Below, piece by piece: positions 2,254-14,393 of a stretch of DNA of 32,828 bases. Both the position numbers and the translations under genes were made by a program. The notes beneath the pieces were generated by a model. The model ran no database searches, was not told the origin of the DNA, and was given only the letters and a program-made list of their open reading frames with translations. How positions within the stretch are numbered: position 1 is the first letter of the stretch; each line of letters opens with the position of its first letter. Source of the stretch: an uncultured Saprospirales bacterium (GTDB lineage: Bacteria; Bacteroidota; Bacteroidia; Chitinophagales; Saprospiraceae); NCBI GenBank assembly GCA_913061325.1, contig CAJXUU010000020.1:1-32828 (forward strand), in the 5' to 3' direction.

Positions 2254-3000
2254 TTATAAGAGGCCCAATACAATGGCCGATGCAGATACTGTTGAAGTAA
2301 GAGGTATGATAATCGAAACTCTTTTATCGAATTCTTTGTAGCTTTTAGATGGAACAATTACGATATCACCAGGGTGCAACTGAATGTTCTTTTGCAAAAA
2401 AATACCCGCCTCAGTTAAATCGATATTAACCACTCTTACATCTGGTCCTTCTTGACGTAGAATTTTTACGCATTCCAAGTTTGCATAGAAATCAAAACCA
2501 CCCGTTTGAGCAATCATATCAAGTAGAGTATTCCGATCTGTATCTACCTTAATAACCCCAGGATTTTTAACTTCTCCTAACACTGTAATCTCCTTATTCA
2601 AAATCTTAACATCTACGATCGGTGTTTTTATCCATCTTTGGAATACACCTCTTAATGTATCTTTCAATTCTACTACTGTTTTACCCTCGACTCTTGTAGT
2701 GCCGATTTTTGGAACCTCGATACATCCTCTTGCATCTACCATCAACCATTTACCATAAACCTCATTAGAATTGTAAATGCCATAGACTGAACCTACACTG
2801 AGTTCATCTTGGCCCCAAACACTAATATTTACTTTATCATATTTTCTTATTGTGTATTCATAATCTGGATTATGAAAAAAGGTACTGTCAATTTCCAATT
2901 TGGAATCTTGCAATTCTTCTTTTGATTCTATAAAAAGATTCTGAGTTTTGCATGAAACTAAAAGTAGCAACATGCTCAAAAAACCTAAATAGTTTTTCAT
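2254..3000 (-). CDS. Wza-like polysaccharide export outer-membrane lipoprotein (poly_export + SLBB)
   Basis: This is an outer-membrane channel component for exported polysaccharide, the partner of the Wzc-like protein just downstream. The 248-residue product has a lipoprotein signal with lipobox LVSC, giving a lipidated Cys17. Next come a Poly_export domain beginning at YTIRKYDKVNISVWGQDELS (about 49-130) and an SLBB strand (ITVLGEVKNPGVIKV, about 138-152). A hydrophobic C-terminal segment (about 228-248) resembles the membrane anchor of this family. It is shorter than E. coli Wza (about 380 residues), as is usual for Bacteroidota homologues with a single SLBB domain. It lies 9 bp from both neighbours, so it is surely co-transcribed with the response regulator upstream and the co-polymerase downstream. 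Confidence 0.92.
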   Translation of the reverse strand: MKNYLGFLSMLLLLVSCKTQNLFIESKEELQDSKLEIDSTFFHNPDYEYTIRKYDKVNISVWGQDELSVGSVYGIYNSNEVYGKWLMVDARGCIEVPKIGTTRVEGKTVVELKDTLRGVFQRWIKTPIVDVKILNKEITVLGEVKNPGVIKVDTDRNTLLDMIAQTGGFDFYANLECVKILRQEGPDVRVVNIDLTEAGIFLQKNIQLHPGDIVIVPSKSYKEFDKRVSIIIPLTSTVSASAIVLGLL

Positions 3001-3009
3001 TGCTAAATA

Positions 3010-3435
3010 TTAATTAAATGAGAACATTGATTTAAAACGAGAAGGCTTTTGTTTCTTAACTATCTTATCCAAACTTGAAATTCTGTTAATCACTTGTGCC
3101 ATCTTTTCTACTTCTTGGTCACTTTTAATGATGTAATCAAAAGCCCCATATTTTAATGCGTCAACAGCCGTTTGTAGATCCTCTTGAGCTGAAACCATCA
3201 CAACATTAATATTTGGATTAAATCGTTTGATTTTCTTTAGAACTTCAAAACCATTCAATGTATCCATCTTATAATCAAGAAATATTATATCTGGATATTC
3301 AATTAAGCTGTTTAAACAGTCTGTTCCACTTTGAAACATTAAAACATCATGAAATCCTAAATTTCTGAGATGTTGTTCATACATGTTGAGACAAAACAAA
3401 TCATCATCCACCAAAAATATTTTGTAATCTATCAT
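3010..3435 (-). CDS. Single-domain CheY-like response regulator
   Basis: This 141-residue receiver domain has no output domain. The ORF track starts at 3498, but the receiver fold begins exactly at the internal methionine (MIDYKIFLVDDD), which has an A/T-rich leader typical of the phylum, so I use 3435. Visible phosphorylation-site residues are the acidic pair D10/D11, phospho-acceptor D54 (IIFLDYKM), S82 (MVSAQ) and K104 (YIIKSD). The loop SAQEDLQTAVDALKYGAFDYIIK closely resembles the receiver of the NtrC-type regulator at 8471-9814, so the two belong to one subfamily. It sits directly in front of wza/wzc-like genes, which suggests that it receives phosphate from the neighbouring HPt proteins and acts on polysaccharide export by protein contact (inference). 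The short basic tail (KKQKPSRFKSMFSFN) has no recognised domain. Confidence 0.9.
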   Translation of the reverse strand: MIDYKIFLVDDDLFCLNMYEQHLRNLGFHDVLMFQSGTDCLNSLIEYPDIIFLDYKMDTLNGFEVLKKIKRFNPNINVVMVSAQEDLQTAVDALKYGAFDYIIKSDQEVEKMAQVINRISSLDKIVKKQKPSRFKSMFSFN

Positions 3436-3602
3436 TGTTATTTTTTTATGATAGATGCCAAAGGCATGCCTACATATCAACAATCTGACTACCAGCAACT
3501 TAAGTGTAATTCATTATCATGTTTTTCCACTAAACGGAAAGCTGTCCACGTGGTGGACGCCATTGTTGATGTATTATAATATATATACCAAGGCAAAATG
3601 AA
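3436..3602 (-). promoter_or_regulatory. Probable promoter/operator region of the response regulator-wza-wzc operon
   Basis: This 167-bp gap precedes the polysaccharide export operon. It holds three small dyads: ATGCC-AAA-GGCAT (3455-3467), TTTCC-N7-GGAAA (3524-3540) and GTCCAC-GTG-GTGGAC (about 3542-3556). No convincing sigma-54 -24/-12 pair was found; the closest (TTACAC-N5-TTGCT on the minus strand) lacks the -24 GG. It is likely regulatory, but the active element cannot be chosen from sequence alone. Confidence 0.35.
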
Positions 3603-4394
3603 CTAATCTAATTCATTTGTCAATTGGTCAATAACTTGATTCAAAACATTTTCAATTTTGACAAGAAATTGAGGTATTAATTCTGAGTTTGGTTTTTCTA
3701 AAGAAAGGAATTCTACTTGTTTTATTTCTTCTGAAATTTGAGTAATACCTAAGACATCAATGCTTGGTTTTATACGATGCGTTATAGCGTTCAAAGTTTT
3801 AAAATCTTTCTCTTGAAATGCCATTTTCATCTTTTGTAAGGAAGATGGTATTGTCTTGACAAATAATCCAATCATTCTATTCACAAACTCTTTATCTCCT
3901 CTACTTATTTCTTCTATTTTTGATATATCATAGTCCATCATATGCTGAGGTTCTCGATCCTTAGTTTCATGTTGTATAACTGATGTCTTTTGCTGACTTA
4001 CATTCAATAATGTTTGTAATAATATTTCTTTATTGAATGGCTTTACGATATAAGCATCCATCCCGGCTGACAAACATTGGTCAATTTGTTCTTTTAATGT
4101 ACTTCCTGTTAGAGCTACAATAGGAGTACTGAGTTTTAATTCTTTTCTGATTATCCTTGTCGCTTGAATTCCATTCATCACTGGCATTTGAATATCCATC
4201 AATATAATATCAAAATTATCTTTAATTATTTCATCGATTGCCTCTTTGCCATTTTGAACTTCTGTAATTAGAATATCATAATTAGCCATAGTCCTTCTGG
4301 CTAAAATCCGATTCATTGAGTTATCATCTACTATTAATACTTTCTTATTCTCGAGTAGTTTGTAGTCTGGCATAGTTAAGTCACTTATTTTCAT
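3603..4394 (-). CDS. Free-standing REC-HPt phosphorelay protein
   Basis: This 263-residue protein joins a receiver domain (about 17-135) to a histidine phosphotransfer domain (about 160-262). The receiver has D23/D24, phospho-acceptor D67 (IILMDIQMPVMNG) and K118 (YIVKPF). The HPt carries H206 in LNAITHRIKPS. It aligns end to end with the C-terminal 260 residues of the hybrid kinase at 5054-8332, sharing for example MDIQMP, GIQATRIIR, HRIKPS and the terminal VIDQL-NE. It is thus best explained as the surviving tail of a duplicated kinase gene that lost its sensor and catalytic part. Both phospho-sites remain and there are no stops, so it is probably functional as a shuttle between the kinase and the nearby regulators. 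It lies between a dead NtrC relic and the response regulator-wza-wzc operon. Confidence 0.88.
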   Translation of the reverse strand: MKISDLTMPDYKLLENKKVLIVDDNSMNRILARRTMANYDILITEVQNGKEAIDEIIKDNFDIILMDIQMPVMNGIQATRIIRKELKLSTPIVALTGSTLKEQIDQCLSAGMDAYIVKPFNKEILLQTLLNVSQQKTSVIQHETKDREPQHMMDYDISKIEEISRGDKEFVNRMIGLFVKTIPSSLQKMKMAFQEKDFKTLNAITHRIKPSIDVLGITQISEEIKQVEFLSLEKPNSELIPQFLVKIENVLNQVIDQLTNELD

Positions 4395-4562
4395 TGTTCC
4401 AATGGCGGGAAAAAATTGCCCATTTAATTTCTATTTGTGCGTCCTAAATGTTCATAAAAATGTACTTGCTTAGCCGCGTATAAATTCTCTTTTACAAAAC
4501 CTTCAATTATTCAATATATAATTATGTGCAAGAGCAGAATTTCATATTTATACAATTTCGTT

Positions 4563-5068
4563 TTATTGGATCATTATATATATATAGTATTTCCCAACAT
4601 CTAATTTTTAAGCCACCAAAATACATTATTATCATTTTTTTAAAAGAAAAAATTTAATGATATCGCAGTTATATTCTCTCAGTATTTTTTCCATAGTAAT
4701 AAAATTTTCATCTTGTTTTATTGCTGCTCAAGCAATATATTCGGCTTTTACTTCTATTCCATCACTTATTATACAAGTCTAATCAACAATAGATTTTAAT
4801 TCTCTTACGTTTCTTTGAAAGCTATATTTAACTAATTTATGTTCTTCATCATCAGAGAATTTCACCTCCACCTTGTTATTATTCTTCGAAAAGGAACCAA
4901 AAGTATTTACTCAGTATTATTACATCAGAACCTCTTTCTCTTTATGGCAGCAATTCAATAGGTAATCCAATTATCCTGTAATAAAAATCCTCTCTAAAAT
5001 TCCCAGCTTTGACTTCATCAATTAATATACTCTGAGTTGCTGTTAATGAACGTTCATCTAACTTCATT
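4563..5068 (-). pseudogene. Decayed C-terminal remnant of a second NtrC-type sigma-54 activator
   Basis: The 660-bp space between the REC-HPt gene and the kinase is not empty. Read on the minus strand it matches residues about 277-447 of the intact regulator at 8471-9814. Examples are FREDFYYRIIGLPIELLP (intact FREDLYYRVIGLPIELPP), RERGSDVIILSKYF, YSFQRNVRELKSIVD (intact YSFPGNVRELKAIVD), LREYNCDII, and KLDVG at the DNA-binding helix. It contains several in-frame stops (after LLP, IVD, YIA, and three in a row before the helix-turn-helix) and at least one frameshift near 4880-4890. The N-terminal receiver, Walker A and GAFTGA parts are missing. Its first bases overlap the last codons of the kinase, which marks a recombination joint. 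Confidence 0.88.
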
Positions 5069-8000
5069 TTTTAATTGATCGATTACTTTTCCCATCACAC
5101 TCTCCACTTTATTAATAAATTGGGGTAATAATGTTGAATCAGAGTCACTAAGAGCGAGAATTTCAATTTGCTTTATTTCATTTACAATCTCTCTTATTCC
5201 CATATCGCTTATACTTGGTTTTATTCGGTGAGCAACAGTATTTAAAGTAATAAAGTCTTTATTTTTGTATGCATCTTTCATTGCATGTATAGATGCCGGA
5301 ATTGTCCTAATAAATAAATGGATCATTTTAATCAAAAATTCCTGATCCCCACCACTTGATTTTTCAAGGAATGCTAAATCATAAGCTTTCGTCTTCGTTG
5401 ATAAGTATTCTATTTCGTTTTTATGAGTCTGAGGCTCAATTGTTCTTTTCTCAATAACATTAAGCAAAACTTGCACAAAAACTTTTTCTTCAAAAGGCTT
5501 TACAACATAAGCATTCATTCCAACTGACAAACAAAGGTCTATTTGTTTTTTGAAAGCATTTGCAGTCAACGCAATAATTGGTGTTTGCATTTCTAATTCA
5601 TTCCGAATTATTCTAGTAGCTTGAATCCCATCCATAATTGGCATTTGAATATCCATTAAGATGATATCAAACGTTTCTGCCTTAACTTTTTCAATTGCTT
5701 CTTTTCCGTTTTCAACTTCTGTTATGAATACATTGTATTTAGATAACGTGGTTACTGCAACTAGGCGATTTAGTGGATTATCCTCCACTAACAATATTCT
5801 TATACCTTTCAGTTTAGTATAATCCAGAATAATATTTCCTTTAGTGATCTCATTGACATTTCCTATTGGAAGTGGCAATTCAATATCAATTTGAGTTCCT
5901 ATACCTATTTTACTAGAAACATTAATTTCCCCGCCCATCAGTTGAATCAAATTAGAAGTAATAGCCATACCTAACCCGGTACCCCCATATAGTCGAAAGG
6001 TCGATTCATCTTCTTGAGAAAACTTATTAAATAAACTACTCAAATAAGCATCTTCAATTCCTATCCCAGTATCTGAAACTGTAATGTAAACCAGTTGAGA
6101 ATAATTGTTAGTAGATTTAACTTCACAAGTTAAAGTAACATTACCTTTTTCGGTGAATTTTAGTGCATTATCAACAAGATTAATTAAGATCTGTCTAATC
6201 CGAATAGCATCTCCGATATAAGCAGGTTTGATATCATCTGAAACGATAATAGCCAAATCCAGATGCTTTTCTATTGCCTTTATTGACATTATCTGTGCAA
6301 CTGAATCAAATACTTTCTTCAATTGAAAGTGCTGATTTTCCAATTTAAATTGTCCAGCTTCTATTTTTGAGATATCCAAAATCTTATTCACAATCGAAAG
6401 TAAGTGCTCAGCGGCTGCTTTAGCATTATTTGCATATATGTTTTCTTTTTCATCAAGTTGACTTTTCAACAACTCTCTAAGCATTCCAAGTATTGCATTT
6501 AGTGGCGTACGGATTTCATGACTCATATTAGCCAAAAAATATTCTTTTGCCTTAGAAGAATCTTCAGCCACTTGTCTAGCTTTTTTCAATTCCTTCTCAA
6601 GTTTTTTATGACTAGTTATATCAAGATGAATGCCTATAGACCCAATCATATTTCCAGAACTATCGTAGGAAGGACCACCACTTATTAACCACCATTTACG
6701 CTCATTCTTCCTGTTTCTTATTTTAATTTCGTAAACATATGAAATCCCATCATCTCTGAGTTTGCTCTTTTCAGCCATCATGTCCTGACCTTCTTCAGAG
6801 AGCAAAACTTTACTCGCAATTTCCCCCAATAATTCATCTAAACTATACCCACTCATTTTACAGAAACTTTGATTTACATATTGAATTCTTTCGTCTAAGT
6901 CGACTTCAATGATTCCAAGTTCCATATTTGCTATTATCCCTCGATATTTATCTTCACTTCTTCTTAAAGCAATTTCCGCAAGTCTTTTTTCCGTAATATC
7001 CCTCGCAACTGCGATTATATTATTCACCCTTCCATCAGGTGCAAAATCAAATGTCACATTTTGCCCAACCCAAACAGTTATACCTTCACTAGTAATTATG
7101 GGCAATTCGAAGTAAGTCTCTTTCAACTGCTGAGTTAATTGGCTATAATAAAATGCTATAGCTTCTTCTCTATGACTATCTTTGACTAACTCCAAATATT
7201 TTTTTCCCCTTAATTGCTTCAAAGTATAGCCCGTCATTTTAGAAAACACTGAATTGGCATATGTAAAATAGCCTTTACTATTTAACTCATATAAAGTTTC
7301 TCCAGCTCTTTCAATTAACTCCTCAAATCTCTGTCTATTTTCAATTAATGCCTTTTCAATCTTTGCCTGTTTTTCTAGAGCGATTGCATTCTTCATCTTT
7401 ATAGCAGCGAGGTTGGCAATAATAGTAAAATCAGAAAGGTGTTCTTTCGTGAAAAAATTTTTCTTTGAATGTTCTGAATCAATTATTCCAATAACCTTTT
7501 TGTCTGAAATAATGGGAACAGTTAATTCAGAATACCTAAACTTATCATCTGGAATATATTCGCGAACGAGAGATGTATCATTAATAAGTAAAGCTTCTCC
7601 AGTTAATGCAACTTTCCCTACAATACCGTCTCCAATTTTAATTTTTAATGGATTTATAATCTCTCGATTATCTTTTTGTTTATACCCATATGCCGCTCTC
7701 TGTGAAAGATATTGGGTGTCTTCATCTATCAAATAAATTACACAATCCTCCAAATCAAATCTACGAATAGCACTTTCTATTATTGTCCATGCTATTTCAT
7801 CAAGTGTTATTTGTCTTAACAAATCGGCTGAAAATTCATTAATACCTCTTAAAATATTTCTTTGATGACTTACTTTTGAAAGTAATTCCTTGATTTCACT
7901 GGTTGCAATCTTTTGAGTCATAAGAATATTATGCAAATCAATTATTGGATCATGAATAGCAAAATCTGTTATTGTAAGATTTCTTTCTTTAATTTCATCT

Positions 8001-8332
8001 ACTGAATCAAACCATGGCGAACCAACAAATAAAAACTGTTCTTTATCAACAAGATACTCAAATTGACCACGAAGAATAAAGGGCTTAATTTCTTTGGTTT
8101 GCAAAATAATAATTTGGTCCAACATTGACACCAATTCTTCATATTTGAGATCTCCCAATTCTGGTCTCTTTAAAAGAAATAGTGAAGAAAATGATGATTT
8201 GCCATCACAGTCACAAATCTTTCTAAGGCTTTTACCAATCGATTGAATTTTAAGCTGATTATCAATCAAAATATAAAAAGGAAATAGCCTGTTAAACTGA
8301 TCAAACTTAAATGTTATAGATTCCTGATTCAT
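5054..8332 (-). CDS. Hybrid sensor histidine kinase: HNOBA-GAF-PAS-PAS-HisKA-HATPase-REC-HPt
   Basis: This 1092-residue kinase appears soluble, with no membrane helices. Residues 8-140 look like an HNOBA domain, the partner domain of H-NOX in soluble guanylate cyclases (FDQFNRLFPFYILID, RGQFEYL, FLFVGSPWFDSVDEI, LTITDFAIHDPIIDL). A helix, then GAF (about 165-320), PAS (335-455) and PAS (460-580) follow. HisKA has H605 in NMSHEIRTPLNAIL. The ATPase domain has DNALKF (721-726), DTGIGI (754-759) and GGTGLGMAI (783-791). The receiver has D894 (LMDIQMP) and K945, and the HPt has H1035 (VAHRIKPS). This complete His-Asp-His layout predicts internal transfer, then output to a separate receiver, most likely the NtrC-type regulator 138 bp upstream. 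No H-NOX gene lies in the window. The stop codon falls inside homology to the NtrC relic, so the natural C-terminus may have been altered by one or two residues. Confidence 0.92.
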   Translation of the reverse strand: MNQESITFKFDQFNRLFPFYILIDNQLKIQSIGKSLRKICDCDGKSSFSSLFLLKRPELGDLKYEELVSMLDQIIILQTKEIKPFILRGQFEYLVDKEQFLFVGSPWFDSVDEIKERNLTITDFAIHDPIIDLHNILMTQKIATSEIKELLSKVSHQRNILRGINEFSADLLRQITLDEIAWTIIESAIRRFDLEDCVIYLIDEDTQYLSQRAAYGYKQKDNREIINPLKIKIGDGIVGKVALTGEALLINDTSLVREYIPDDKFRYSELTVPIISDKKVIGIIDSEHSKKNFFTKEHLSDFTIIANLAAIKMKNAIALEKQAKIEKALIENRQRFEELIERAGETLYELNSKGYFTYANSVFSKMTGYTLKQLRGKKYLELVKDSHREEAIAFYYSQLTQQLKETYFELPIITSEGITVWVGQNVTFDFAPDGRVNNIIAVARDITEKRLAEIALRRSEDKYRGIIANMELGIIEVDLDERIQYVNQSFCKMSGYSLDELLGEIASKVLLSEEGQDMMAEKSKLRDDGISYVYEIKIRNRKNERKWWLISGGPSYDSSGNMIGSIGIHLDITSHKKLEKELKKARQVAEDSSKAKEYFLANMSHEIRTPLNAILGMLRELLKSQLDEKENIYANNAKAAAEHLLSIVNKILDISKIEAGQFKLENQHFQLKKVFDSVAQIMSIKAIEKHLDLAIIVSDDIKPAYIGDAIRIRQILINLVDNALKFTEKGNVTLTCEVKSTNNYSQLVYITVSDTGIGIEDAYLSSLFNKFSQEDESTFRLYGGTGLGMAITSNLIQLMGGEINVSSKIGIGTQIDIELPLPIGNVNEITKGNIILDYTKLKGIRILLVEDNPLNRLVAVTTLSKYNVFITEVENGKEAIEKVKAETFDIILMDIQMPIMDGIQATRIIRNELEMQTPIIALTANAFKKQIDLCLSVGMNAYVVKPFEEKVFVQVLLNVIEKRTIEPQTHKNEIEYLSTKTKAYDLAFLEKSSGGDQEFLIKMIHLFIRTIPASIHAMKDAYKNKDFITLNTVAHRIKPSISDMGIREIVNEIKQIEILALSDSDSTLLPQFINKVESVMGKVIDQLKNEVR

Positions 8333-8343
8333 TAGATACCAAC

Positions 8344-8361
8344 TTACCTTAAATATTTCAT
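8344..8361 (-). other. Five-codon leader ORF behind a perfect Shine-Dalgarno sequence
   Basis: On the minus strand AAAAAGGAGGTGATC is followed directly by ATG AAA TAT TTA AGG TAA. The AGGAGGTGATC string (8362-8372) is fully complementary to the usual 16S rRNA 3' end, which is exceptional in a phylum that rarely uses Shine-Dalgarno pairing and unlike the other gene starts in this window. The tiny ORF (MKYLR) ends 11 bases before the ATG of the hybrid kinase and is out of frame with it. It may be a translated leader that modulates kinase translation, or a chance match. Confidence 0.35.
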
Positions 8362-8470
8362 GATCACCTCCTTTTTATCGACTATTCACTAATTCAATGA
8401 TTACTAGTGTATCATACAACTTTCCTAAACCCGCAGAAATCCTCTAACAAGATCCTGCAAGCCCATCTAT

Positions 8471-9814
8471 TTAGTTAATCCTTTCCTTAATCATTTTATA
8501 AATAGTGCTCTTTCCAATATCCAATTTTTTGGCTACTAACTTGACGTTATTGCTATATTTATTAAGAAAATATTCAATGATGTCGCAATCATATTCTCTT
8601 AGCGTTTTCTCTTTAGTTACAAAATGCTCGTCAGATTTTATTGCTGCATAAGTAATATCCTTAGCTACAACTTCATTCCCATCACACATAACACAAGATA
8701 AATCAACAATTGCTTTTAATTCTCTTACATTACCTGGAAAACTATAACTCAATAATTTTTCTTTTGCTCCATCAGAAAACCTAATTTCGTTTATATTATT
8801 ATCTTTTGTAAATGCCTCAAAAAAGTGCTTTGCCAGTATCAATATGTCTGAACCTCTATCCCTTAAAGGTGGCAATTCGATCGGCAACCCTATAACTCTA
8901 TAATAAAGATCCTCCCTAAATGTCCCTTCCTTTACCCCATCAATCAGGTTTTTATGCGTAGCAGTCAATAACCGAACATCCAATTTTATTTTTTCATTTC
9001 CTCCGACTCGAACAACTTCTCTTTCTTGAAGTACTCTAAGAATCTTACTTTGTACACTAAAATCCAATTCTGAAACTTCATCCAAGAAAATTGTGCCTCC
9101 TTGCGCCTCTTCAAATTTGCCAATTTTTCGCGTTACTGCACCAGTAAAAGCCCCCTTCTCATGTCCAAACAATTCACTTTCTACAAGTTCTTTTGGAATA
9201 GCTGCCATATTAACCGCTACAAAAGGCTTCTTTTTCCGATTGGAATTATAATGAATTGCTTTTGCAACCAACTCTTTACCCGTTCCTGTTTCTCCAGTTA
9301 TCGAGACATTAATATTTGTTTTTGTGGCTTTTTCAATCAATGAGAAAGTTTTCTTCATTGCACTACTTTGGCCAATTATAGACTTTTCAAAATCAAACTT
9401 TTGACCTAATTGCTCTTTCAGTACCTCTACTTCCTTTCTTAACCCAGCAGTTTCTCTCAATTTTAGAATGGAATTCCAAAGTATCTTTTTAGAATTATCA
9501 TCTTTGATGATATAATCCGAAACTCCAGATTTTAAGAGATCTACAGCTACAGAAACTTCTTCTTGTCCACTAATAACTATTACAGGAATAGAACTATTTA
9601 CAGCACATATCTTTTCAAATAACTTATCACCTTCCATATCAGGCAAGCCAAAGTCAATGCACACAACATCAGGATTCAGGTGCAAATTAGCTAAACAATC
9701 TTTCCCCAATTCAAAGACAGTTACATCATATTCTGGATTCAGTGAAAGGTGATACTTGAGTAGTTCCCCATACCAAGGATCATCTTCTACAATAAATATT
9801 TTAAATTGAGACAT
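8471..9814 (-). CDS. NtrC-family sigma-54-dependent response regulator
   Basis: This is a transcription activator that opens sigma-54 promoters after phosphorylation. Its 447 residues form three parts. The receiver (about 1-120) has D11/D12, phospho-acceptor D54 (VCIDFGLPDMEG) and K104. The AAA+ domain (about 142-375) has Walker A GETGTGKE (174-181), the sigma-54 contact loop GAFTGA (221-226), Walker B GTIFLDE (240-246) and the arginine-finger region FREDLYYRV (299-307). The Fis-type helix-turn-helix is at about 421-446 (VKLVAKKLDIGKSTIYKMI). It is the first gene of the signalling block, 138 bp before the hybrid kinase, which probably phosphorylates it. All catalytic motifs are intact, unlike its decayed paralogue at 4563-5068. 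I could not find a clear -24/-12 target promoter in the window. Confidence 0.95.
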   Translation of the reverse strand: MSQFKIFIVEDDPWYGELLKYHLSLNPEYDVTVFELGKDCLANLHLNPDVVCIDFGLPDMEGDKLFEKICAVNSSIPVIVISGQEEVSVAVDLLKSGVSDYIIKDDNSKKILWNSILKLRETAGLRKEVEVLKEQLGQKFDFEKSIIGQSSAMKKTFSLIEKATKTNINVSITGETGTGKELVAKAIHYNSNRKKKPFVAVNMAAIPKELVESELFGHEKGAFTGAVTRKIGKFEEAQGGTIFLDEVSELDFSVQSKILRVLQEREVVRVGGNEKIKLDVRLLTATHKNLIDGVKEGTFREDLYYRVIGLPIELPPLRDRGSDILILAKHFFEAFTKDNNINEIRFSDGAKEKLLSYSFPGNVRELKAIVDLSCVMCDGNEVVAKDITYAAIKSDEHFVTKEKTLREYDCDIIEYFLNKYSNNVKLVAKKLDIGKSTIYKMIKERIN

Positions 9815-10020: not shown

Positions 10021-10092
10021 TAAATAAAAAACAAAATTTAAACCAGAAACCCTTTATGAATAACAATTCATAAAGGGTTTCTGGTTTAAATT
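10021..10092 (-). terminator. Perfect 27-bp hairpin with T-rich tail (intrinsic terminator)
   Basis: The two arms 10035-10061 and 10066-10092 are exact reverse complements over 27 bases around the 4-base loop AACA (core AAACCAGAAACCCTTTATG). On the minus strand the stem is followed by a T-rich run (TTTTGTTTTTTATTTAA), so it should stop transcription arriving from the large secreted-protein gene, whose stop codon lies about 90 bp upstream. It also insulates that gene from the NtrC-kinase block. The stem is far longer than most intrinsic terminators. Confidence 0.8.
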
Positions 10093-10184: not shown

Positions 10185-13100
10185 TCACTGTTTAATAAAG
10201 CGCCCCGTTTTTACTATACCCAAAGCATCTTTATAGCGGATAAAATATCCTCCAGCTCCAAGTGTAGATATATCAAGATGATTTATTTTACTATCAGCTT
10301 CGAAGTTATAAATTTGTACACGCTTCCCCGAATCACTTATTACATCAATGTGAATAACTCCTCGTTCTTTTATTTCTCCAGTCTCGTAAACATCATCATT
10401 GACTAAATAACATTCTATTAAATCAATACCAGGGTTTGGAAATATATTTAAAAAAAAATCATCTGGAAGATTCTCAACTAGATTTATTGTATTCAAACAT
10501 TCATTAGTTTCTAAGTAAGGATTATAATCAAACTGGATTGAGGCTTTATTTATAATTTCACTTCCATTCGCAGCTCCTTCTTTAGCCATAATACTGTATT
10601 CAATAAAACCATGTGATTCAGATTCATTGTGCAAACTATCTAGCAAATTGATATCTCTAAAATACCATTCTAAAATATTTCCTTCCAATATGCGAAATAT
10701 ATGGGCATGGCTTACAATCCCAAGTTCTAAACTTATAAGATCCAAAAATTCTGGGAGCGTGTCAATCACTTTAACAAAAGACGCAGGATAATTTCCAACA
10801 TTTTGAAATCTAATTTTATACCTCAATCGAGTGTCGGGTTTTATAAGGTGACTAGAACCTACGCCATGAGGAGAGACTAAAATATCATTAGGATCTAAAG
10901 ACCCTACTATCATTTCTATCAAAGCCTCTGAATTATTATTATAATCAACTTCATCAAGTGATGTTCCAATATTTACAGTAATACTTTTTTGATCTCCTAA
11001 ACTTGCGTTGAGATCTACATAGTTCATTAGGTTTATAACCTTAGTTTCTCCAGCTAGTAAAGTATCTATATTCCAATAATAAATACTCCCTATTTGGTCA
11101 TCCCATGCTATTGAAGCAGACGCAAGAGATAAATCAGCATCAAATTCTAAATCCACTGTAGCGTCAAAAACATCCTTAGTACCCATATTTGAAATACTAA
11201 TCACCATTTCATTTTCAAACCCTCTTCGTAACACTGTAGTGCCTAAACTTATAGACAAGTCAGGTTTATCCTGAATGGCCAAATTTGGAAAATCAAATCC
11301 TGATAGTACCTGACCTACACTTGTTACGTTAACATTATGTGGATTGGGCTGACATATAGACTCATAATTCTCTGGAATATCCTGTTGAATATTATAAGAC
11401 CCTACAGGCAAAGAAATTTCATAATATCCACTATCGTTCGAAATCGCATAAATGGACCCAGAGCTTATAATTATCATCGTATTTGATATTGGCAATTCGC
11501 CTTCATCCTTAGTACAATTACTATTTGCGTCATGGTACAGATGTCCGCTAACTAAAGCGCCATCATCTTCTTTAATACTTAAAAATTGATCCGCAGAGAT
11601 GCTATCCATTGTTTGAACATATCCACTTGGCCAATGAACAACAACTGATATAACAGCCGTAGCATCCGATAACCCGAAGTGCTGGCTAAGTGTACTCTGA
11701 CTACCTGGACCACCTCCTGTCTGTCCCATTACCTCTCGCATTACTGTAGTATTAACGCCGTCAATAACAGCATTAACGTAAATTCGTGCCCCAATTGCAG
11801 AACGATTTGAATTGGTGCCTTCTAAACGTATTATTAAATAATGACCAGTTGCCAGATTGTTCACAAATACTCTATTACTTTCACTGCTATGGTTGGAAAT
11901 CACTAAATCTATATCACCATCTAGCTCAAGGTCTGTGGATGCAATTGCAAACGAATTGCCAACTGGACTGACAAATGGAGAGTCGGTAACTTTTCCAAAC
12001 GTACCATCTCCATTGTTCATATATAAAAACTTAGACCCATCTAAGTCATTCATTACCGCTAGATCAAGCCAACTATCATTGTCCAAATCTGCCCATACTG
12101 AACCATGCGAATTCCCTTTATCTTCTGCAACCCACCCAGTAATTACTTTTGTAAAATTTCCATTCCCATCATTTGTATAAAGAAAATTATGTTGATCAGA
12201 AGCATTGGCAACAAAAAGATCCAAGTCCAAGTCATTATCAAAATCTCCAAAACTTGCACCAACAGAATTACTTAGGTCACCCATTTCAATAGCGGAAAAA
12301 GACGTTCCTTCTTGATTAATGTATAAGACATTTGAAGTACCGTAATTGGGAATAAAACAATCAGACCAACCATCATTATTTACATCTGCCCAAATGGCTC
12401 CAATACTATTACTAGCTTCAGAAACAATCTCAAGACCATATGTTAATTCCATTGTTCCATCTCCCCTATTGCGGTACAATTGATTGAAATTTGTACCGAA
12501 ATAATCTGAAGTAAAAATATCTAACCATCCATCTCTATCAAAATCAACAAAACAAACATTGTGAGTATAGCCATCTGCCAGACCGATCAACGCACTACTT
12601 TGATTTACGAACGTCTGGTTATTATTCTTATAGAGTTGAATTGGATCTCCTACATTGTTAGCAATTACAACGTCTATTTGTCCATCATTATCAAAATCTC
12701 CCCAGGATGATGCCACCGTTGGAAAGAGATCATTCACCAAGTCCCCGCCCAGATGTTCTGTAAAGCTTCCAGACCCATCATTTAAAAATAATTTATTTTT
12801 GACAGTATCTACATAGGCTGGGACGAAAATATCATCATAGCCATCATCATTGAAATCTACCGCTGAGATACCCCAACTGTTCATCGAGACATTTACAACT
12901 GGATCATTTGTCAATTCTTGTAACGGTGGAGCTTCTGCACAATCAGAGTCTGCAGCATCAATATATCCATCCCCATCATTGTCAATGCCATCTGCACAAT
13001 CAGTTTCTAAGGTAGTTAAAGGCAAAGAAGTAACACATTCTGGATTTATATAAATAACAGGTGTATTAGTATTAACCGCTCCAGCTGTAGAAAGCTGTTT

Positions 13101-14393
13101 ACCAGCTAAAAACACACCCGCTCCGGCACTACATGCTCCGGCATGGGAAATGAAATTTCCTTTCACCACAGAGGCAGCTCCTATATTCACTGCACCAGTA
13201 GCAACGCCTGCTCCTCCAATCCAAAAAATATTACAACGCCTCGCCCCATTAGTTAATATCATTTTTGATAGTGCCGCTATATTAAATGCCCCGGCAACTC
13301 TCACAACAAAGATTGCATCAGGGTCACCTTCAGCATCAAGAGTAATAAGTCCTGATAAAGCCGCAGCTGAAAAGATATCGTACACCCCAGGAGTAAGTGT
13401 TTCATTAAGAAAAACTGCAGTATGTGTTTCAGTAGCTGGCAACATCATAAGAGAACTGTAAGCGAACTCTAAATCTACCACAGCTTGTGCTGTAAGCGCA
13501 TTTGCAATTTCCTGAGTTCCTATGTGAATTCCACTCGCAAAACCAGTGATCGCTCCCGCATTCGTGCCAATATTACCAATAATTCCGGAGGCTCCCGTAT
13601 TTCCGACAATACCTGCACTTGCGAAAAGCGAAAAGTCTGAAAGAACTCCCAATACATCAACAGCAGAAGCAGGATCACAGCTCGATTCACAAAATATTGG
13701 AATCGTACTGGTACAAGAAGGTTTAACTGCCACAGATCCCGCAGCATAAGTTATGACTCCACTCATACTAAACATTCTTCCTTCAAGAAGAACATTTGCA
13801 CCTAGGCCAACAGCTCCTGACTTTGAGAATAAGGTTCCCTTGAGATCAGCACCCGCTCCAATAGAAATAGCTCCATTAACTAGCCAGAAAATATTACAAG
13901 ATTGAACGCCACCAGTTAAAGTAATTGTTGCACCTGCCGTCCCGGTAAGTGCCCCATTCATCTTGATTATAAAGAAAGCATTGGGGTCACCTCCACCATC
14001 AAGCGTAAGAGAACCACCTATACTCCCAGCACTTGATATGGAATAAACGCCCGGATCAAGAACTTCGCCACCTCCAAAAGTAGGTGAATGAGTGCTAGGA
14101 AAGTCAACAAAAAGATCATTAAGATGGATGTATAATCTAAGTAAATCTTTACTAGCCTGATCCGTTACAGCATCACTACTATATGTATTACCATCATAAG
14201 ATCCTATTACTGAACCCAAATGGGTGCCCACATCTCCAGTAACGGTTCCTCCAGAATTAGTAATGTCTCCTGCTGCAGTAAAAGCTTCAAAAGAAGAAAG
14301 TATTCCTAAATTAGCTGTTTGACTAAAGCTTAGATTTGAAAACAACAATACTAAGAAAGCTGTTAGTGAAAATAACATTAATTTATTTGTCAT
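10185..14393 (-). CDS. Giant T9SS-secreted mosaic: two DUF3494 domains, FG-GAP repeats, UnbV/ASPIC, DUF11-like
   Basis: This 1402-residue cell-surface or secreted protein starts with a signal peptide ending near SFSQ (residue 25). Two DUF3494 (ice-binding-like) domains follow at about 26-225 and 245-450, each with the LGILSSF-type opening and a CNIFW strand. Then come a calcium-binding-type aspartate-rich segment (DGIDNDGDGYIDAADSDC, 468-485) and about seven FG-GAP/VCBS repeats (about 505-845; DFNDDGYDDIF, DFDNDGQIDVV, DFDRDGWLDIF). A UnbV/ASPIC-like domain (about 852-940), an SdrD_B-like domain with HLYHDANSNC (about 947-1035) and DUF11/CARDB-like domains (about 1042-1310; DPNDILVSPHG) complete the middle. 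A type A T9SS sorting domain (FLNIFPNPG to GRFIKQ, about 1327-1402) ends it. A role in adhesion or surface or ice binding is an inference from the domains. Confidence 0.92.
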   Translation of the reverse strand: MTNKLMLFSLTAFLVLLFSNLSFSQTANLGILSSFEAFTAAGDITNSGGTVTGDVGTHLGSVIGSYDGNTYSSDAVTDQASKDLLRLYIHLNDLFVDFPSTHSPTFGGGEVLDPGVYSISSAGSIGGSLTLDGGGDPNAFFIIKMNGALTGTAGATITLTGGVQSCNIFWLVNGAISIGAGADLKGTLFSKSGAVGLGANVLLEGRMFSMSGVITYAAGSVAVKPSCTSTIPIFCESSCDPASAVDVLGVLSDFSLFASAGIVGNTGASGIIGNIGTNAGAITGFASGIHIGTQEIANALTAQAVVDLEFAYSSLMMLPATETHTAVFLNETLTPGVYDIFSAAALSGLITLDAEGDPDAIFVVRVAGAFNIAALSKMILTNGARRCNIFWIGGAGVATGAVNIGAASVVKGNFISHAGACSAGAGVFLAGKQLSTAGAVNTNTPVIYINPECVTSLPLTTLETDCADGIDNDGDGYIDAADSDCAEAPPLQELTNDPVVNVSMNSWGISAVDFNDDGYDDIFVPAYVDTVKNKLFLNDGSGSFTEHLGGDLVNDLFPTVASSWGDFDNDGQIDVVIANNVGDPIQLYKNNNQTFVNQSSALIGLADGYTHNVCFVDFDRDGWLDIFTSDYFGTNFNQLYRNRGDGTMELTYGLEIVSEASNSIGAIWADVNNDGWSDCFIPNYGTSNVLYINQEGTSFSAIEMGDLSNSVGASFGDFDNDLDLDLFVANASDQHNFLYTNDGNGNFTKVITGWVAEDKGNSHGSVWADLDNDSWLDLAVMNDLDGSKFLYMNNGDGTFGKVTDSPFVSPVGNSFAIASTDLELDGDIDLVISNHSSESNRVFVNNLATGHYLIIRLEGTNSNRSAIGARIYVNAVIDGVNTTVMREVMGQTGGGPGSQSTLSQHFGLSDATAVISVVVHWPSGYVQTMDSISADQFLSIKEDDGALVSGHLYHDANSNCTKDEGELPISNTMIIISSGSIYAISNDSGYYEISLPVGSYNIQQDIPENYESICQPNPHNVNVTSVGQVLSGFDFPNLAIQDKPDLSISLGTTVLRRGFENEMVISISNMGTKDVFDATVDLEFDADLSLASASIAWDDQIGSIYYWNIDTLLAGETKVINLMNYVDLNASLGDQKSITVNIGTSLDEVDYNNNSEALIEMIVGSLDPNDILVSPHGVGSSHLIKPDTRLRYKIRFQNVGNYPASFVKVIDTLPEFLDLISLELGIVSHAHIFRILEGNILEWYFRDINLLDSLHNESESHGFIEYSIMAKEGAANGSEIINKASIQFDYNPYLETNECLNTINLVENLPDDFFLNIFPNPGIDLIECYLVNDDVYETGEIKERGVIHIDVISDSGKRVQIYNFEADSKINHLDISTLGAGGYFIRYKDALGIVKTGRFIKQ

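Follow-up and report, generated by a model that had tools for sequence, protein, structure and literature searches.

A stand-alone REC-HPt gene beside a decayed NtrC copy: uneven loss after tandem duplication of an NtrC-hybrid kinase unit

The origin of small relay proteins from large hybrid kinases is in most cases deduced by counting domains. The window (the whole 32,828-nucleotide stretch of DNA analysed here, from an uncultured Saprospirales bacterium) encodes a small REC-HPt protein close to a hybrid kinase that ends in the same two domains and directly after the remains of an NtrC gene. Is this protein a working part that was cut from a second copy of the kinase, or is it debris on its way to the fate of the NtrC copy? 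A preliminary description of the locus favored the former, proposing a tandem duplication that decayed unevenly and left the kinase tail as a separate phosphotransfer branch.

A repeated two-gene unit in a polysaccharide-export cassette

The genes of the locus lie on the minus strand in the order NtrC-type sigma-54 activator, hybrid kinase, NtrC relic, REC-HPt, single REC, Wza-like and Wzc-like. The intact NtrC (8471-9814; 447 amino acids) has the make-up of an NtrC-type activator: a REC domain, an AAA+ domain whose GAFTGA loop is seen in the translation, and a C-terminal helix-turn-helix-like end (Pfam Response_reg, Sigma54_activat at 234 bits, and AAA_lid_14). It is the upstream gene of the ancestral two-gene unit, and its orthologues, with 52-69% identity, immediately precede the kinase in many genomes. 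The intact kinase (5054-8332; 1092 amino acids; orthologues at loci L046 and L047) contains an N-terminal PAS-like/HNOBA match, GAF, two PAS, HisKA, HATPase_c and Response_reg domains by Pfam. It ends in a tail homologous to REC-HPt, including the HPt histidine, and thus has the layout of an unorthodox hybrid kinase. Its N terminus (8090-8311, residues 8-81) matches part of the Pfam HNOBA model (heme NO binding associated) and could possibly be a PAS-like domain for gas or redox sensing.

Downstream of the relic and REC-HPt, the single REC-domain regulator (3010-3498, Pfam) is an old member of the cassette, with orthologues immediately after the kinase in L046, L047, L165, L168 and others, and is a likely target of the relay. 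The Wza-like export protein (2254-3000; Poly_export and SLBB) and the Wzc-like chain-length protein (1-2244; Wzz and GNVR) are conserved neighbors, also on the minus strand. On the far side of NtrC, a 20-pair stem-loop followed by T-rich sequence (10040-10087) is a strong candidate, from its sequence, for a terminator between NtrC and the large gene at 10185-14393, which it directly follows. That gene encodes a secreted protein of 1402 amino acids with two ice-binding-like stretches and a weak match to a T9SS sorting tail.

Between the kinase and the single REC lie the relic (4563-5076), which corresponds to NtrC from about residue 272 to the C terminus, and the stand-alone REC-HPt gene (3603-4394; 263 amino acids), identified by Pfam, alignment and an AlphaFold2 model. 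REC-HPt aligns over its full length with the tail of the intact kinase (5054-5845), at 51-52% amino-acid and about 68% DNA identity, and the relic (5076-4563) aligns with the last 40% of NtrC (8998-8471) at 69% DNA identity. A whole-genome DNA search with segment 3603-5100 returned no copies beyond those at the locus, and the best protein match of REC-HPt in the genome is the kinase tail (273 bits, against 85 bits for the next-best REC match). A tree of 96 REC-HPt tails makes the stand-alone protein the sister of the tail of the neighboring kinase (support 100/99), and one of 33 NtrC segments pairs the relic with the intact NtrC in the same way (98/94). The alignments and both sister pairs thus bear out the preliminary reading of the order and coordinates as one two-gene unit repeated. 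At the junction (5054-5076), the last codons and stop of the kinase overlap, in a different frame, the start of the NtrC-derived sequence in the DNA alignment. The last few residues of the intact kinase were created at this junction, while the truncated REC-HPt retains the original 3' flank.

Orthologous loci show the order NtrC, kinase and single REC, mostly followed by Wza and Wzc, with neither a relic nor a second tail. This full arrangement occurs at L047 (Flavobacteriaceae NORP20) and in the family members L168, L170, L171, L176, L177, L181 and L182; L046 and L165 have the first three genes without export genes downstream, again with no relic or second tail. Such loci, which the preliminary description had looked to as a possible objection, date the duplication to this lineage and are no argument against it: since the orthologous loci of family and class members carry no insertion, the comparison places the tandem duplication of the NtrC-kinase unit here, inside a cassette linked to polysaccharide export. 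The event is known from one genome. No close orthologue of either this NtrC or the kinase is present in the three congeners (G001-G003, same genus), and more distant family members do have such orthologues, so the cassette was either lost in the congeners or gained here. Some family members hold two complete NtrC-kinase pairs at separate loci (L171/L172 in G398; L174/L182 in G390), one pair beside REC-Wza-Wzc and the other without, and duplication of the unit therefore recurs in the family.

Probable late loss of the second NtrC

The second NtrC is indeed riddled with stops, as first described: the relic has 6 in-frame stops in 170 comparable codons and 4 frame-breaking indels, and is clearly homologous to the adjacent intact gene. 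It also lacks the first ~60% of NtrC (residues 1-271), a large 5' deletion that had gone unmentioned. Conserved sites have changed in 9 of 40 cases, compared with 0-4 in intact orthologues. Differences between relic and intact NtrC, at 0.22, 0.19 and 0.51 for the three codon positions, have the pattern expected of a protein-coding history.

Pairwise dN/dS by itself is uninformative at this locus, with synonymous sites near saturation (pS 0.72). We fitted a codon model that included twelve orthologues and gave both copies one shared clock, on which the omega estimates lean because of that saturation; without the shared clock, omega = 1 is only weakly rejected (2 x 3.6 for the relic and 2 x 2.0 for REC-HPt). 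Under the clock, the relic has a mean omega of 0.14, compared with 0.03-0.05 for functional genes. When its branch is divided between a constrained and a neutral stretch, with the clock assumed, the best fit has about 8-12% of the time since duplication neutral (2-lnL range about 3-25%), which leaves the relic under coding constraint for ~90% of that time (support range 75-97%). A relic that was neutral throughout is rejected (lnL -5882.5 versus -5861.2 at 12% neutral, 21 units worse), and so is one that was never neutral (lnL -5867.5, 6 units worse than the best).

Neutral for only about 11% of the time, the relic is unlike a dead-on-arrival pseudogene. On this modeling, the second copy of NtrC probably went on working through most of its history and became a pseudogene late. 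A fragment without the REC domain and without the half of the ATPase domain that carries Walker A could hardly have persisted as an NtrC, so the duplicated stretch probably took in all of NtrC and the front was lost later. The tandem duplication and its uneven decay are thus upheld, and the decay is a late loss rather than an immediate one.

Integrity of the surviving REC-HPt

Unlike its neighbor, the REC-HPt gene has no stop and no frameshift. The polypeptide lacks HisKA and HATPase parts (a 263-residue ORF in an open frame of 275, with in-frame stops upstream) and keeps every phosphotransfer residue: the acidic pair D23/D24, D67, T96 and K118 in the receiver and H206 in the HPt domain. The claim that the second kinase lost its sensor and catalytic parts while both phospho-sites survived is therefore correct. 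Pfam recognizes the receiver clearly (Response_reg, 91 bits) and scores the HPt domain at 23.8 bits, just below the 24.6 cut-off; H206 is invariant among 11 homologues. The AlphaFold2 model (mean pLDDT 86) has a REC fold and a helical HPt bundle, with helices 168-194, 198-215, 221-233 and 239-262 at high confidence. In a fold search the best matches cover the REC part alone, because REC dominates the ranking.

The deletion that stripped the second kinase of its sensor and catalytic parts has its junction in the spacer between relic and REC-HPt (4395-4562). We considered whether this spacer still aligns with the NtrC-kinase spacer and the HATPase end; these alignments failed shuffle tests, apart from one marginal 33-nt piece, and homology to the kinase front in general was not significant. 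The end points of the kinase deletion therefore cannot be placed. A short HATPase-end remnant is possible at ~4415-4446, where the similarity of 4446-4415 to 5901-5870 was equaled in 6 of 200 shuffles.

Under the shared clock, omega is 0.10 for REC-HPt, 0.087 for the kinase tail and 0.059 for the orthologues, and fixing REC-HPt at omega = 1 is 43 lnL units worse. The mean for REC-HPt includes the period when it was part of a whole kinase, and past and present constraint are not separable in it. The best neutral fraction is 0-2%, with 10% being 4.1 lnL units worse, so no neutral period is detectable. The unbroken frame is better evidence than omega, given that the mean omega of the dead relic is low as well. 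Had REC-HPt shared the relic's neutral exposure, about five stops and six frameshifts would be expected in it; it has none. The chance of escaping both is about 0.005 x 0.002, or about 1e-5 jointly (range roughly 4e-6 to 1e-4). The retention of REC-HPt is thus well supported.

REC-HPt has evolved faster than the kinase tail (0.71 versus 0.44 in the tree), and its REC domain is altered in helix 1 and in the ALTANA loop. In this β4-α4 loop (4095-4115, residues 94-100), REC-HPt reads ALTGSTL where orthologues have a nearly invariant ALTANAF. The HPt face around H206 (HRIKPSI, EIKQ) is unchanged relative to the kinase. Consensus searches found no promoter for REC-HPt; Bacteroidota-type and sigma-70-type scans gave nothing above chance. 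Matches to the sigma-54 (-24/-12) promoter likewise did not exceed chance frequency, with none convincing within the cassette.

Alternative histories and a proposed role

How else could this arrangement have arisen? Stand-alone REC-HPt proteins are known elsewhere (PMC4558063), and such a gene might have come to lie beside an NtrC pseudogene by independent arrival. The tree, which joins REC-HPt to this kinase's tail, refutes that history, leaving it hardly credible. Nor do relatives supply a source: matches in 398 family and 395 class genomes sit in kinase-sized frames or at contig ends, and no stand-alone REC-HPt of this type is among the significant matches in these 793 genomes, contig-end fragments aside. 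Three possible relatives (G312, G415 and G314) were rejected as contig-end truncations. The distant stand-alone relatives that the preliminary description thought would tell against a local origin were thus not found among these genomes. More economical would be a breakpoint inside NtrC, with the 5' part never present and the relic never a gene, so that one duplication and one deletion suffice. The relic does begin exactly at the kinase 3' end, with short similarity at the junction, as a duplication breakpoint would, and this keeps some weight for what looked like the simplest model. A fragment that was never a gene should be neutral, however, and both the codon-position differences and the 21 lnL units against full neutrality under the shared clock set this model back; we regard it as quite unlikely.

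A further possibility is that the second kinase stayed whole until very recently, making REC-HPt a freshly orphaned, functionless fragment with too little time to decay. Its mean omega is no answer to this, and its conserved-site changes are slightly above those of its sister (3/29 versus 0/29). Yet those changes are within the range of intact orthologues (up to 4/33), REC-HPt outlasted the relic's decay with its frame intact, and directly upstream the sequence, with most of any HATPase end, has degenerated past significant similarity, which argues against a very recent deletion. On balance a functionless orphan seems unlikely. Judged from its domains, a separate phosphotransfer branch would be plausible for REC-HPt: the gene possesses a start and a frame of its own, its REC and HPt sites are intact, and residues have changed in REC helix 1 and the β4-α4 loop. 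A fully independent branch, with its own kinase and target and insulated from the parent relay, strikes us as improbable: the gene shares its strand with the parent cassette, within which it sits, and its HPt face, identical to that of the kinase, suggests shared partners.

We consider it probable, then, that after the unit was duplicated both copies were long functional, and that the second NtrC and the front of the second kinase were lost while REC-HPt was kept in the parent relay. An NtrC and a REC-HPt-tailed hybrid kinase, which in relatives head a polysaccharide-export cassette, were duplicated in tandem, and both copies would have remained functional during most of the time since. The second NtrC would then have been truncated at its front and have decayed, and the second kinase would have lost its sensor, HisKA and HATPase parts to a deletion of roughly 2.5 kb. 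What was left, the 263-residue REC-HPt, has had its frame and phosphotransfer residues maintained by purifying selection.

In unorthodox kinases, phosphate passes from HisKA to REC to HPt and on to the REC of a regulator. In the parent relay, phosphate would reach NtrC and the single REC, and the relay would control the adjacent polysaccharide genes. The REC of REC-HPt may take phosphate from the HisKA or HPt of the intact kinase, and its HPt may pass phosphate to, or drain it from, NtrC and the single REC, tuning the parent relay rather than forming a separate pathway. Because the HPt face around H206 is unchanged from the parent, targets shared with the parent kinase appear likelier than a separate pathway. 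The altered helix 1 and ALTGST loop mean that phosphate uptake or lifetime may differ from the parent. Our best guess from these features is that REC-HPt acts on the parent relay as a shunt, buffer or sink. More tentatively, REC-HPt could be a newborn relay component, cut from a duplicated hybrid kinase and selected as a phosphate shunt or buffer on a polysaccharide-control relay, with the dead NtrC serving as an internal neutral clock.

Relation to known relay proteins

With parent, offshoot and dead co-duplicate adjacent, and the single-copy arrangement as outgroup, one can measure both the order in which parts were lost and the selection acting on each of them, and the locus is a clear, datable case of a small relay protein cut from a large sensor. 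It also carries a caution. Constraint in the past can leave a strong imprint on a pseudogene, so that a low mean dN/dS in a fragment that has survived is by itself no proof of present function.

Small relay proteins of this kind are already known, and the locus is mostly ordinary, if instructive, evolution; what is unusual is the readable origin of REC-HPt. A 2015 PeerJ survey counted 312 stand-alone RR-HPt proteins (class RRHPt) in 264 proteomes; like REC-HPt, they have one receiver and one HPt domain without a kinase (PMC4558063). Here, in contrast, the source kinase adjoins and the co-duplicated NtrC survives as a relic, which makes legible both the origin and the order in which parts were lost. 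The intact kinase has the HK-REC-HPt layout of BarA, ArcB and TorS, and REC-HPt matches BarA's REC-HPt over 16-246, but it lacks the HK part and scores far under the curated cut-offs of those named proteins. Two-component genes have been described as undergoing fusion, fission, duplication and domain loss, among other things through small indels that alter domain composition and give rise to pseudogenes and through the duplication of hybrid kinases as a unit (PMC4603909, PMC8175716); the present case differs in offering, at a single locus, both fates and a built-in neutral yardstick. A further parallel is VieB of Vibrio cholerae, one of the auxiliary regulators of hybrid-kinase relays, a receiver protein that is encoded with an unorthodox kinase and adjusts the kinase's output; the paper does not describe VieB as a REC-HPt offshoot of VieS, and the likeness is one of functional analogy only (PMC4352251).
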